A stretch of 64,000 nucleotides of DNA. Origin: Desulfoferula mesophila (GTDB taxonomy: Bacteria; Desulfobacterota; Desulfarculia; Desulfarculales; Desulfarculaceae). The position numbers were made by a program, and so were the translations under genes. Shown here in pieces: positions 45,395 to 50,567 of this stretch. Below the pieces are notes generated by a model. That model was not told the origin of the DNA. It worked only from the letters and a program-made list of their open reading frames with translations, and did no database searches. The stretch covers positions 387,501-451,500 of the forward strand of contig NZ_AP028679.1 in the NCBI RefSeq assembly GCF_037076455.1. The letters are read 5' to 3'. Position 1 is the stretch's first letter. Each line of letters opens with the position of its first letter.

Positions 45395-46237
45395 CTAGTC
45401 CTTGCGGGCCAGCCGGCCCAGGCCCAGGGAAACCAGGTACACCGCCCCGGCCAACAGCACGATCACCGCCCCGGCGGGCAGGTCCGGGCCGTAGCTCAGG
45501 GCCAGGCCGCCCCAGGTGACCCCCAGGCAGACGAGGGCGGCCAGGGCCATGATGGGCCCCAGGCGGCGGAAGAAGTTGGCCGCCGTGGCCGCGGGCAGGG
45601 TCAACAGGGCGATCACCAAAATTATGCCCACCACCTGGGACAAGAGCACCACGGTGAGCGCCGTGAGCCCCAGCAGGAGCAGGTAGTAGAAATCGGCGGG
45701 CAGGCCCCGCAAACGGGCGAACTCCTGGTCGAAGCACACCGCCAAGAGCTGGCGGTACAAGAGCAGGGCCGCCCCCAGCACCACCGCGTCCAGCCCGGCC
45801 ATGAGCCACAGGTTTTCCGGGGTGACCATGAGGATGTTGCCGAACAGGTAGCTCATGAGCTGCACGTCGTAGCCGGGGGTCAGGGCGATGAACACCACTC
45901 CGGTGGCCATGCCCACCGCCCACACCGCGCCGATGATGGTGTCCTCGCGCTGGCGGGCGTGCAGGCTCACCAGGCCGATGATCCCGGCGGCGGCCAGGGC
46001 GGCGGCCACCGCGCCGTGCATCGGGTGCAGCCAGCTCCATCCGTGCGCCACCGCCAAATAGCGGGCCAGGCCCATGCCGCCCAAGACGCTGTGGGCGATG
46101 GCCCCGGCGATGTAGCTGATGCGCTTGACCACCACGTAGGCCCCCACCACCCCGCAGGCCAGGCTGGCCAGGGCCCCGGCCACCAGGGCCTGCTGCAAAA
46201 AGGCGTGGCCGGCCACGGCGCTCAGGAACTCATTCAT
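45395..46237 (-). CDS. znuB: Zinc/manganese ABC transporter permease
   Basis: This 280-residue, eight-helix or more ABC-3 family permease starts FLQQALVAGALASLACGVVGAYVVVKRISYIAGAIAHSVLGG. It also has REDTIIGAVWAVGMATG and SQVVGIILVIALLTLPAATA. It forms the membrane channel of a Zn/Mn importer. Its start overlaps znuC by eight bases. Confidence 0.92.
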   Translation of the reverse strand: MNEFLSAVAGHAFLQQALVAGALASLACGVVGAYVVVKRISYIAGAIAHSVLGGMGLARYLAVAHGWSWLHPMHGAVAAALAAAGIIGLVSLHARQREDTIIGAVWAVGMATGVVFIALTPGYDVQLMSYLFGNILMVTPENLWLMAGLDAVVLGAALLLYRQLLAVCFDQEFARLRGLPADFYYLLLLGLTALTVVLLSQVVGIILVIALLTLPAATAANFFRRLGPIMALAALVCLGVTWGGLALSYGPDLPAGAVIVLLAGAVYLVSLGLGRLARKD

Positions 46238-46979
46238 GAGCCCCCCCGTGCTCCAGGTCGTGGTCGTGGCGCACCAGGCGCACCGGCGCGCCGTAGAGCT
46301 CGCTGATGAGACTGCCGTTGATCACCTGGGTGGGATGGATGCTCAGGCTCTGGTTGATGCAGGCCACCCGGCTGACCGCCGGGGACACGAAACCCAAGTC
46401 GTGGGTGACCAGCACCACCGTCACCTGGGGTTGGAGCCCGGCCAGGATGTTCATCAGGTCCACCCCGCCCCGGGGGTCCACCGCGGCGGTGGGCTCGTCC
46501 AAGAGCAACAGCTCCGGCCCGGCCACCAGGGAGCGGGCGATGAGCACCCGTTGGCGCTGGCCCCCGGAGAGCCGCCCGAAGCTGCGTCCGGCCAAGTCGC
46601 CGGCCTCCAGCTTGTCCAGGGCGGCCAGGGCGGCGCGTTTCTGTCCCCGCCGCCACAAACCCAGGCCGGAGCCCGCGCCCATGAGGCCCATGAGCACCAC
46701 CTCCAGGGCCGACACCGGGAAGCCGGGGTCCACCGGGGCGTGCTGGGGCAGATAGCCGATGCGGGCCCGCGCCTTGACCGGGGGCAGGCCGAATACGCGC
46801 ACCGTGCCCTTTTGGGGGGCCACCAGCCCCAGCATCAGCTTGAGCAGGGTGGTCTTGCCGCCGCCGTTGGGGCCCACCAGGGCCAGGAACTCGCCCTGCT
46901 CGATGCTCAGGTCCACCCCGGCCAGCACCGGGCGGCCGTTGTAGGCGAAATCCACCCCTTTGATCTCGATAAGGGCCAA
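46230..46979 (-). CDS. znuC: Zinc/manganese ABC transporter ATP-binding protein
   Basis: The 249 residues include Walker A GPNGGGKTT, Q-loop LPQHAPVDPGFPVSALEVV, signature LSGGQRQRV, Walker B LLLLDEPTAAVD and the H-loop VTHD. The C-terminal tail RHDHDLEHGGAHE is His-rich, as in Zn-type members. It starts at TTG 46979 (AGGAAAGG upstream), 12 bases after the RHH regulator. No ZnuA solute-binding gene is in the window. Confidence 0.93.
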   Translation of the reverse strand: MALIEIKGVDFAYNGRPVLAGVDLSIEQGEFLALVGPNGGGKTTLLKLMLGLVAPQKGTVRVFGLPPVKARARIGYLPQHAPVDPGFPVSALEVVLMGLMGAGSGLGLWRRGQKRAALAALDKLEAGDLAGRSFGRLSGGQRQRVLIARSLVAGPELLLLDEPTAAVDPRGGVDLMNILAGLQPQVTVVLVTHDLGFVSPAVSRVACINQSLSIHPTQVINGSLISELYGAPVRLVRHDHDLEHGGAHE

Positions 46980-46991
46980 GGGCCGCCTTTC

Positions 46992-47273
46992 CTAGTGGTC
47001 CGCCGCTTCGCGGGTCCTGCCGGCGTCGCAAACCAGGTGGGGAGCGTCGCAGGTGGAGCAGCGCTCCACGTGGTGGTGCTGGGCGAATCCCGCCCAGTGC
47101 CGTTTCTGCTCCGGGGTGAGGATGCCCGTGCCCTGGCACAGGGGGCACACCCCGTCCAGGGCGGACAAGATGGCCGAGCGGATGAATTCCGAGCGGTTGT
47201 CGATGCCTTCCATGGCCGCCACCAGGGCGGGATCGGCCTTGAAGGTGATGACCTCGGGCTTGCCTTTTTTCAT
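46992..47273 (-). CDS. Ribbon-helix-helix regulator with Cys/His metal-binding tail
   Basis: The 93 residues begin with an N-terminal ribbon-helix-helix (about 5-40: EVITFKADPALVAAMEGIDNRSEFIRSAILSAL). The tail (43-93) has Cys43/Cys46, His66-68, Cys72/Cys75, His79 and Cys82, enough for one or two Zn sites. It is the first gene of a three-gene unit with znuC and znuB, so it is probably a metal-responsive repressor of the importer. An inverted repeat at 47302-47318 upstream is a likely operator. This is distinct from Zur (Fur-type). Confidence 0.75.
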   Translation of the reverse strand: MKKGKPEVITFKADPALVAAMEGIDNRSEFIRSAILSALDGVCPLCQGTGILTPEQKRHWAGFAQHHHVERCSTCDAPHLVCDAGRTREAADH

Positions 47274-47301
47274 ATGCGTCTCTTCGCTGCCGGGTTAACG
47301 C

Positions 47302-47318
47302 GTATTACCATATAATAC
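47302..47318 (-). promoter_or_regulatory. Inverted-repeat operator upstream of the RHH-znuCB operon
   Basis: GTATTA, five bases, TAATAC: a perfect 6-bp dyad 29-45 bases before the RHH start codon. On the coding strand it contains TATTAT, a possible -10, so binding would block transcription. Confidence 0.6.
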
Positions 47319-47351
47319 CGTGAAATCCCCGCTCTCGCGGGCATAAAAAAA

Positions 47352-47380
47352 CCCGGACGGCCCCTTGGGGGCTGTCCGGG
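47352..47380 (-). terminator. Intrinsic terminator
   Basis: Stem CCCGGAC plus GCCCC with GGGGC plus GTCCGGG, one internal mismatch, then seven Ts on the minus strand (47345-47351). It ends the small membrane protein gene. Confidence 0.88.
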
Positions 47381-47430
47381 CTCGGCAAGGGAGGAGAAGT
47401 CGGGAGAAAGGCGTGAATCGAGATCGCAGC

Positions 47431-47790: not shown

Positions 47791-47829
47791 TTGGCATACG
47801 AACTATCTTCCCGAGAGGCGCCGACCATC

Positions 47830-48237
47830 GTGACCCAAGAGTGCTACGTGTTTCTGTTGTCCAAGGCCTATCAAAAGGGGCACAGCCTGGTGCAGGCCCG
47901 GCTGAAGCCCTATGGCCTGACCAACCTGCAATACGTGATCTTGGAGATGCTCTGGGGCCGGCCGGGGGCCAGCGCCACCGAGCTGGGCAAGGAGCTGACC
48001 ATCGATAAGGCCACCCTTTCCGGGGCCTTGGAGCGCATGAACGAGGCCGGATGGCTGGAAAAGCGGCCCGACCCGGACGACGGGCGCATGCTGCGCCTGT
48101 TTTCTTCGGCCAAGGCCGACGAGCTGCGCCGGGAGCTCGTAGACCAGCGCCAGGCGGCCAACCAGGAGTTCCTGGCCGGCCTGAGCAGCGAGGAGCGCCT
48201 GCTTTTGGGCCGCCTGCTCAAGGACCTGGCCGCGTAA
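47830..48237 (+). CDS. MarR family transcriptional regulator
   Basis: This 135-residue winged-helix protein has YGLTNLQYVILEMLWGRPGASATELGKELTIDKATLSGALERMNEAGWLEKRPDPDDGRMLRLFSS, which is the MarR DNA-binding core with wing residues DPDDGR. The GTG start is chosen from promoter position. It lies about 90 bases upstream of the molybdopterin oxidoreductase, its probable target. The ligand is unknown. Confidence 0.93.
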   Translation: MTQECYVFLLSKAYQKGHSLVQARLKPYGLTNLQYVILEMLWGRPGASATELGKELTIDKATLSGALERMNEAGWLEKRPDPDDGRMLRLFSSAKADELRRELVDQRQAANQEFLAGLSSEERLLLGRLLKDLAA

Positions 48238-48326
48238 AAAGGGGATTATTTTTTTTGAGGATATAGTTCGTATTCAAACAAAACTTCGCAGGGCGGAGCG
48301 GGCCTGACCGCGACAAGGGGATGACC

Positions 48327-50567
48327 ATGGGTGCTTGGCAAAAGACCGGATGCGTGCTGTGCGCGCAGAACTGCGGCCTGGAGATGATGGTGGAGGACGG
48401 CCGGCTGACCAGGGTGCGGCCGGACAAGGACAACCCCCGCTCCAAGGGCTACGCCTGCCGCAAGGGGCTCAAGGTCATCTACCACCAATACCCCGCCGAC
48501 CGCCTCACCCAGCCGCTCAAACGAGTGGGGGATGAGTTCCAGCCTATTAGCTGGAAGCAGGCCCTGGCCGAGATCGCGGCACGGCTCAAGGAACTGGTGG
48601 GCCAACACGGTCCCCGCTGCCTGGCCTACATGGGTGGCGGGGCGCCCGGCGGCAGCTTCGAGGCCTCCTTTGGGGTGCGCCTGCTGCGAGCCCTGGGCTC
48701 GCACTACTATTACTCCTCGGCCGGTCAGGAATTCAGCGGGCACTGGTGGGTGCACGGGCGCCTCCTGGGCCGGCAGTATAACGTGACCAAGTCTGACGAG
48801 GAGCGTAGCGAGATGCTGCTGGCCTGGGGCTGGAACGGCATGATGAGCCACCAGATGCCCCGGGCCCGCGCGGTTCTCACCGAGATCGGCAAAGACTTCA
48901 ACCGCCTGTTGGTGGCCGTGGACCCCCGCAAGAGCGAGACGGCGGCCATCGCCGACATGCACCTGGCCCTCAGGCCGGGCAGCGACGCCCTGCTGCTCAA
49001 GGCCATGATCGCCCTGATGGTGCAAAACGGCTGGGAGGATGCCGACTACCTGGAGCGCCGGGTGGAGGGCTGGGAGCAGATCAAGCCCTGGTTCACGGGC
49101 TTCGACGCCCGAGCCGCCCTGGAGGTCTGCGGGGTGGACTACGGCCAGGTGGTGGAGCTGTGCCGCCTGCTGGGCTCCAAGGCCTGGAGCGTGCATCCGG
49201 ACCTGGGCCTGTACATGGGACGGCGCAGCACCCTGAACTCTTACCTGCTGATGCTGCTTTGCGCGGTGTGCGGGAGGCTGTGCCGCTCCGGGGGCAACCT
49301 GGTGCCCGGCATGATCATGCCCCTGGGCTATCACGCCGACGAGCGCGACCCCAAGGTGTGGCGCACCGTGGCCACCAACCTTCCCCCCGCCGCGGCCGGC
49401 TCCTTCCCTCCGGCGGCCATGCCCGAGGAGATCACCAGCGGCCATCCCGAGCGCCTGCGGGCGGTGCTGGTCAGCGCCTGCAACCCCCTGCGCTCCTACC
49501 CGGACACCGCCGCCTACGAGCGCGCCTTCGCCCAATTGGACCTGCTGGTGGTCAACGACATTGTCATGAGCGAGACGGCCCGCCTGGCCCACTACGTACT
49601 GCCCTGCCGCACCTTCTACGAGTCCTGGGACGGCACCTTTTTTGCCAACACCTACCCCGAGGTGTACTTCCAGATGCGGCGCCCCCTGGTGGAGCCCCCG
49701 GCCCAGTGCAAGGAGGCCTCGCAGATCTACCACCTGTTGGCCAAGGAATTGGGCCTGGTGCCCGAGGTTTCCCAGGAACTCAAGGAAGCGGCCCAGGGGA
49801 ACCGGCTGGCCTTTGGCATGCAGCTCATGCGCTGGGCCGCGGACAAGCCGGCGGCCAAGATGATGCTGCCCTTTGTGCTGGCCGAAACCCTGGGGCAAGA
49901 GTGGGACAGCGCGGCCCTGGCCGGGCTTTGGGGCATGCTTATGACCGCGCCCAAGGCCTTTGCGGCCAATGCGGCTCGGGCCGGTTTCGCGCCGGGTCCG
50001 GACCTGGGCGACCGGGTGTTTCAGGCAATCCTGGACAACCCCCAAGGCTTGTGGATCGGCCAGGCGGACCCGGCCGAGGCCTGGAGCGACGTGCGCACCG
50101 GCTCCGGCAAGCTGGAGGTGTACATCCCCGAGCTGGCCCAGGAAGCCGAGGCCCTGAATCCGGCGGACGAGGCCCGCGAACTACAGCCCGACCCCGCCTG
50201 GCCCCTGGTGCTCAACGCGGGGCGGCACATGGACTACAACGCCAACACCATGATGCGCAACCCGGCCTGGAACCAGGGCAAGCGGGCCTGCACCGTGGCC
50301 CTGAGCCCGGCCGACGCCGAGGCCCTGGGCCTTGTGGACGGCCAGACGGTGAGCGTGACCACCGCGGCGGGCACGGGGAGCGGCGAGCTGCAGGTGAGCG
50401 GCCAGGTGCGCCAGGGCATGGTGCTCATCCCCCACGGTTTCGGGCTCGTCTACGACGGCCAGGTCTACGGCCTCAACGTGAACCGCCTTACCTCGGCCGC
50501 GCACCGCGACTTCATCGGCACCCCGCTGCACCGCTACGTGCCCTGCCGGGTGGAGGCGGCCCAGTAA
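48327..50567 (+). CDS. Molybdopterin-dependent oxidoreductase
   Basis: The protein has 746 residues. The ATG at 48327 is six bases from AAGGGG; ATG 48321 is also in frame. The N-terminal [4Fe-4S] motif has Cys9, Cys12, Cys16 and Cys44. It is a DMSO-reductase-family Mo/W-bis-MGD enzyme (LLVAVDPRKSETAAIADMHLALRPGSDALL; C-terminal NAGRHMDYNANTMMRNP and LVDGQTVSVTTAAG). No Tat signal is present, so it is cytoplasmic. The segment before GHWWVHGRLLG has no obvious Sec or Cys Mo ligand. No electron-transfer subunit is adjacent. The substrate is unknown. Confidence 0.88.
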   Translation: MGAWQKTGCVLCAQNCGLEMMVEDGRLTRVRPDKDNPRSKGYACRKGLKVIYHQYPADRLTQPLKRVGDEFQPISWKQALAEIAARLKELVGQHGPRCLAYMGGGAPGGSFEASFGVRLLRALGSHYYYSSAGQEFSGHWWVHGRLLGRQYNVTKSDEERSEMLLAWGWNGMMSHQMPRARAVLTEIGKDFNRLLVAVDPRKSETAAIADMHLALRPGSDALLLKAMIALMVQNGWEDADYLERRVEGWEQIKPWFTGFDARAALEVCGVDYGQVVELCRLLGSKAWSVHPDLGLYMGRRSTLNSYLLMLLCAVCGRLCRSGGNLVPGMIMPLGYHADERDPKVWRTVATNLPPAAAGSFPPAAMPEEITSGHPERLRAVLVSACNPLRSYPDTAAYERAFAQLDLLVVNDIVMSETARLAHYVLPCRTFYESWDGTFFANTYPEVYFQMRRPLVEPPAQCKEASQIYHLLAKELGLVPEVSQELKEAAQGNRLAFGMQLMRWAADKPAAKMMLPFVLAETLGQEWDSAALAGLWGMLMTAPKAFAANAARAGFAPGPDLGDRVFQAILDNPQGLWIGQADPAEAWSDVRTGSGKLEVYIPELAQEAEALNPADEARELQPDPAWPLVLNAGRHMDYNANTMMRNPAWNQGKRACTVALSPADAEALGLVDGQTVSVTTAAGTGSGELQVSGQVRQGMVLIPHGFGLVYDGQVYGLNVNRLTSAAHRDFIGTPLHRYVPCRVEAAQ

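Follow-up and report, generated by a model that had tools for sequence, protein, structure and literature searches.

A ribbon-helix-helix protein with a Cys/His tail as a candidate zinc-responsive repressor of znu genes in Desulfoferula mesophila and other bacteria

The window, which is the whole stretch of 64,000 nucleotides (64 kb) analysed from the Desulfoferula mesophila genome (4.48 Mb), carries on its minus strand a gene of 93 codons with an ATG start (46992–47273) for a NikR/CopG-like ribbon-helix-helix (RHH) protein with a Cys/His tail, recognized from its ORF, from family alignments and from Pfam, PDB and VIA-align matches. This gene, referred to here as the regulator, is the first of three on the same strand: after a gap of 12 bp it is followed by znuC (46230–46979, TTG start, Pfam ABC_tran), coding for the ATP-binding subunit of a metal ABC importer, and then, with an overlap of 8 bp, by the permease gene znuB (45395–46237, Pfam ABC-3, 1e-69). 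The best NCBIfam models for the two transport genes were AztA (zinc) and AztB, respectively, both below the cut-off, and znuB gave the one ABC-3 permease match of the entire genome. A Rho-independent terminator-like hairpin with a T7 tail (47349–47383, minus strand; −28.8 kcal/mol, z −3.9) stands between the operon and the upstream gene on the same strand; it was found by folding, while a consensus terminator scan of the window copy did not list it, a single A.C mismatch in its stem being the probable reason. Since such a strong hairpin lies just upstream, regulator-znuC-znuB is probably a transcription unit of its own. The genome codes for three Fur-family proteins, all located elsewhere. On the strand opposite the zinc operon, a gene for a MarR-family regulator (47791–48237) lies directly before a molybdopterin oxidoreductase-like gene (48321–50567).

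The RHH domain spans approximately residues 6–41 of the regulator and is followed by a tail containing C43xxC46, H59, H66H67H68, C72xxC75, H79, C82 and H93. The tail contains CPLCxGTG, H59 lies on a helix, and H67, C72xxC75 and C82 are on a hairpin. In an alignment of 37 diverse relatives, F11, K12, N26, S28, F30, I31, R32, C43, C46, H59, H67, C72 and C82 were invariant and C75 nearly so, with R27 listed within the conserved helix-2 stretch N26 (R27) S28. Seven potential ligands are therefore conserved (C43, C46, H59, H67, C72, C75 and C82), although C75 is replaced in the distant member L102 and C82 in the distant member L041, which was left out of the alignment. The combination of an RHH domain with a Cys/His tail, proposed in the initial annotation, was thus borne out by the ORF and the family alignments; the HHH run that it singled out is present in the window, whereas across the family only H67 is conserved, and H79 shows no family-wide conservation.

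Database comparisons placed the DNA-binding part of the protein near NikR and CopG. Pfam RHH_1 matched weakly in 27 of the 37 relatives (E up to 0.1) and the DnaJ-type CxxCxGxG in 33, also weakly; the tail bears a weak resemblance to the DnaJ CxxCxGxG and Anti-TRAP zinc knuckles. A PDB profile search returned two matches, CopG RHH (E 0.0063) and NikR (E 0.13), while a PDB search with the single protein returned none. NikR was also the sole VIA-align match (Z 2.3, residues 6–42, rmsd 1.8 over 37 residues, 32% identity). The AlphaFold model was modest (pLDDT 77.5, pTM 0.46) and predicted, with moderate confidence, helices at 15–20, 27–40 and 54–63 and strands at 67–71 and 78–82; the N-terminal RHH strand, formed upon dimerization only, does not appear in this single-chain model. 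Foldseek with the model gave no significant match, and neither Foldseek nor VIA-align found a solved fold resembling the tail. The two helices and the conserved N-cap motif of helix 2, together with the N-terminal beta strand expected in the dimer, are those of the RHH superfamily. The ACT-like nickel-binding domain of NikR, with its His/Cys ligands, is not recognizable: the protein ends about 50 residues beyond the RHH domain, and Pfam and NCBIfam scans detected no NikR C-terminal family; the Fur winged helix (PF01475) gave no match either, in agreement with the proposal that the regulator is unrelated to Zur/Fur. The parallel proposal for NikR holds for the sensor domain but not for the DNA-binding domain, since NikR was both a PDB profile match and the only VIA-align match.

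Each of the seven further genomes of the genus has a close ortholog of the regulator, as does most of the family. Beyond these the occurrence is patchy: the regulator profile detected the gene in 35 of 394 genomes in a sample of the phylum, three of them marginally, and in 13 of 292 genomes around a planctomycete. Among named MAGs it was present in Planctomycetes, Zixibacteria, Eisenbacteria, Spirochaetes, Glassbacteria and Hydrogenedentota, while the viral contigs searched yielded no relatives; many of the relatives come from MAGs, and their gene starts were assigned by rule. Linkage to metal transport, set beforehand along with dyad conservation as a test of the proposed function, was seen in about 50 of the 51 loci with enough flanking sequence, where znuA and/or znuCB lies directly beside the regulator in Desulfobacterota, Planctomycetes, Spirochaetes, Zixibacteria and others. 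In 49 of these loci the adjoining znuA, znuC or znuB match was strong; the ZnuA-like gene of L085 gave a weaker match, and the neighbour match in L041 was unclear. The commonest gene order is rhh-znuA-znuC-znuB, the genus of the window having rhh-znuC-znuB only. A role as an antitoxin was dismissed, given that znu is the constant neighbour and that no gene for a toxin partner turned up.

Upstream of the regulator, the sequence GTATTACCATATAATAC at 47302–47318 comprises two 7 bp boxes, GTATTAT (47318–47312) and GTAATAC (47308–47302) on the minus strand, placed 10 bp apart and centred 37 bp before the ATG; it was defined as an operator from its pattern in the genome and its conservation in orthologs. 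The GTATTA-N5-TAATAC dyad of the initial annotation is real, occurring at exactly two sites in the 4.48 Mb genome, the window operator and one before the only znuA, and is better read as two near-palindromic 7 bp boxes, GTAWTAC-N3-GTAWTAC, with a start-to-start distance of 10 bp. Such a symmetric arrangement of short boxes near the regulator's own promoter is characteristic of RHH operators. With the degenerate pattern, 47302–47318 was the sole 12/12 site in the 64 kb window, the runner-up reaching 10/12. A dyad scoring at least 11/12 was present in 44 of the 51 orthologous upstream regions, against a mean of 0.03 in dinucleotide shuffles, and an unprompted Gibbs search recovered GGTAWTACnnnGTAATAc (20.8 bits, as compared with 7.9–8.6 for shuffled sets). 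Two of the weak scores were accounted for: in L040 znuA comes first and is itself preceded by two dyads, and L099 has an 11/12 site approximately 510 bp upstream. A one-mismatch site at genome position 220948 (L109) adjoins no recognizable zinc-related gene and was treated as a chance match. Perfect sites in L161, L163, L164, L166, L167 and L151, and several in the AT-rich genome G448, seemed unrelated to zinc uptake; reversed-pattern controls indicated that some chance dyad matches are to be expected.

The position of the boxes relative to the promoter was determined in the orthologs. In 22 of 48 orthologous loci (0.7 expected) a −35 element, TTGAC, starts 9–12 nt ahead of the dyad, and, given this fixed distance, the boxes fill the spacer and the −10 region. 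In these orthologs the second box coincides with the −10 element (TAATAC/TAATAA), and the −35/−10 spacing around the boxes is normal (16–18 bp). An alignment read by eye placed the dyad of three loci of the genus (L019, L020 and L022) within a TTGNNG-N17-TATACT promoter. The initial placement of the dyad over the −10 therefore describes the orthologs; in the window copy, a sigma-70 promoter scan found no recognizable −35/−10.

The second site in the genome (C1:323872–323888, perfect) lies 111 kb from the window operator and precedes the only znuA. Hence the observation that no znuA accompanies the operon is true locally, while the genome does possess one, as a second target of the operator. 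This znuA codes for a protein with a His-rich loop and belongs to an apparent operon (L117:2687–5366) in which the next genes code for an ArsP_1 permease and a DUF1980 protein; both would share the dyad-dependent control of znuA. Since the genome has a single ABC-3 permease, ZnuA and ZnuCB are presumably partners, for which a common signal would be advantageous. A perfect site was likewise found before the unlinked znuA of each of the other seven genomes in the genus, directly in six and, in G007, by matching the upstream neighbour gene because the contig ends just past the site. The unlinked znuA of G151, from another family, also carries a perfect site, and so does each ZnuA gene, confirmed as such, of the spirochaetes G447 and G441, in which znuA is separate from rhh-znuCB. 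The operator is thus shared by all znu units in the genome of the window, in the genus and in these three further genomes, in line with the dyad conservation across phyla.

A zinc regulon is expected to include outer-membrane metal-uptake genes, as Zur regulons do. Perfect sites were present before a gene for a small His/Cys protein and a TonB receptor in G001, G006 and G010, before porin-like genes in G002 and G019, and before homologous outer-membrane-type genes in G421 and G338. In G002 the perfect dyad (L149:2984–3971) lies between the gene for a coiled-coil porin-like protein and a divergent gene for a DtxR/MntR-family regulator, which is possibly a link between two metal regulons.

To compare these frequencies with genomes lacking the regulator gene, we scored znuA upstream regions from the latter and found the dyad in 2 of 29, the others reaching at most 9/12. 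The difference (44 of 51 with the regulator gene versus 2 of 29 without it) gave a Fisher p of 1e-12, a value that overstates independence because the sequences are related, although the cases still span several phyla. Both exceptions, G015 and G069, have a 12/12 site before znuA. G015 is a sister genome from the same family in which the broad profile did not find the regulator gene, and an assembly gap or a loss are alike possible. In G069, which has no RHH gene, the 12/12 dyad GTATTATTCTTTAATAC (L173:2532–2548) lies between a Fur-family gene and znuA.

Linkage and dyad conservation support the view, already put forward in the initial annotation, that the protein is a metalloregulator of zinc uptake. 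Judging from the sequence data, it very likely represses high-affinity zinc uptake in a metal-dependent manner and regulates its own gene as well; the conserved ligands and the nature of the targets point to zinc as the co-repressor, and repression would take place when zinc is replete. In the proposed mechanism, two RHH dimers, a stoichiometry that we infer, would bind next to each other on the two GTAWTAC boxes, whose 10 bp spacing corresponds to one helical turn. Each near-palindromic box would be contacted by the paired beta strands (ITFK) of one dimer. As the boxes lie between −35 and −10 and overlap the −10, binding would block RNA polymerase. In a replete cell the Cys/His tail would bind Zn(II) via C43/C46/C72/C75, possibly with a second site at H59/H67/C82, and the bound metal would stabilize the DNA-binding state. 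Falling zinc would lead to loss of the metal and relief of repression, so that the unlinked znuA operon, with its genes for ZnuA, the ArsP-like permease and the DUF1980 protein, would be expressed together with znuCB and the regulator.

We weighed this proposal against three other explanations. The strongest of them, which we nevertheless regard as unlikely, is that the regulator represses znu through the dyad while the zinc of its tail is structural and merely keeps the RHH dimers positioned, the signal being another metal (Mn or Fe), cysteine redox state or an interaction with protein partners. The C43/C46/C72/C75 set does resemble structural zinc sites such as those of DnaJ (CxxCxGxG) and Anti-TRAP, but seven conserved ligands exceed what one structural site needs. 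Besides Zn, cluster A-I ABC importers are able to transport Mn or Fe, and clustered Cys sites can act as redox switches; against another metal signal, the targets are zinc-like, as judged from the His-rich loop of ZnuA, from AztA and AztB as nearest models, albeit below the cut-off, and from a ZIP gene beside divergent relatives.

It appears much less probable that the dyad is the site of a different regulator, such as Zur, NikR or a DtxR/MntR-type protein, with the RHH protein as an accessory or a passenger. The three Fur-family proteins of the genome and the G069 site beside a Fur-family gene would fit such a scheme, yet the dyad tracks the RHH gene in the comparison above, a Fur-like match (from a weak query) adjoined rhh-znu in only one of the tested loci, and a site in such an autoregulatory position is what one usually finds for local regulators. 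The NikR half-site of delta-proteobacteria, GTGTTAC, is close to GTAWTAC, but its copies are spaced by N13–N14 in these bacteria as compared with N3 here, and the Zur boxes reported for them, ATGCAACNNNGTTGCAT and TAAATCGTAATNATTACGATTTA, differ from the dyad (PMC545781). Slightly more improbable still is that the regulator activates or anti-represses znu. Sequence alone does not reveal the direction of control, and some RHH proteins do activate, as reported for H. pylori NikR at some promoters (PMC9860126); however, with the boxes located inside the −35/−10 spacer and over the −10, an RHH pair bound to them should block polymerase.

Repression by a zinc-loaded regulator resembles several known systems without coinciding with any of them. 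NikR, a nickel-responsive RHH repressor (PDB 1q5v and 2hza), shares the RHH DNA-binding domain, the control of a metal importer and a similar half-site, but it is linked to nickel genes rather than to zinc-type transport (znu), and the tail of the regulator is a short Cys/His knuckle without sequence match to the NikR C-terminal domain. Zur has the job proposed here, that is, repression of znuABC and of accessory zinc uptake (TonB receptor, porin) under replete conditions, and a similarly small and scattered regulon, but it has the Fur winged helix fold and a different box. Bacterial zinc uptake is generally regarded as being under Zur control, AdcR being the streptococcal exception. AdcR, a MarR-family protein of Streptococcus, also provides non-Fur control of a zinc ABC importer and is thus a precedent for Zur replacement, although its fold, lineage and operator are different. 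Adjacent dimers of Arc/MetJ/omega-type RHH repressors read tandem short boxes, as proposed here for the regulator, but these proteins lack a metal-binding tail and have other targets.

The best reading of these data is that the regulator replaces Zur. A comparative study of 2004 found the znuABC genes of the delta-proteobacteria G. metallireducens, Desulfuromonas and D. psychrophila without Zur or Zur boxes, and suggested either that they have no zinc-specific regulation or that another mechanism operates (PMC545781). The regulator family, with its defined operator and predicted regulon, is a candidate for the mechanism left open there. A search of the non-subscription literature found no RHH or CopG regulator of zinc uptake, and a search for the operator box returned unrelated text only. 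RHH metalloregulators are already known, and as far as we found, a member with this tail controlling znu is undescribed. We consider it probable that the protein is the founding member of a metal-sensor family, in which RHH repressors equipped with a zinc-sensing Cys/His domain of their own replace Zur in lineages of several phyla. If so, a second, different metal-sensing domain would have become attached to the RHH fold, giving a zinc-sensing branch of RHH metalloregulators beside NikR, and the divergent relatives of the planctomycete group (up to four per genome, next to ABC and ZIP transporters) would suggest that further sensors of this kind exist.

Several variants of the regulator were observed among its relatives. 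In a PVC-group MAG (L041:2060–2680) it is fused in frame to a small His/Cys-rich membrane-type protein, and a 10/12 dyad lies upstream of the fusion gene; the small His/Cys protein under the perfect dyad before the TonB receptor in G001, G006 and G010 resembles this fusion partner. Members of a divergent planctomycete-group subfamily (L219–L225) combine the RHH domain with CPxCxGxG and an extra CxxC, and in L224 and L225 the gene immediately precedes one for a ZIP-type transporter (Pfam Zip 1.7e-28 for L224). Four paralogs are present in the planctomycete-group genome G577 (L218, L226, L227 and L228), three of which adjoin znuB/znuC-like or other ABC importer genes, while one is near a weak TonB-receptor match.
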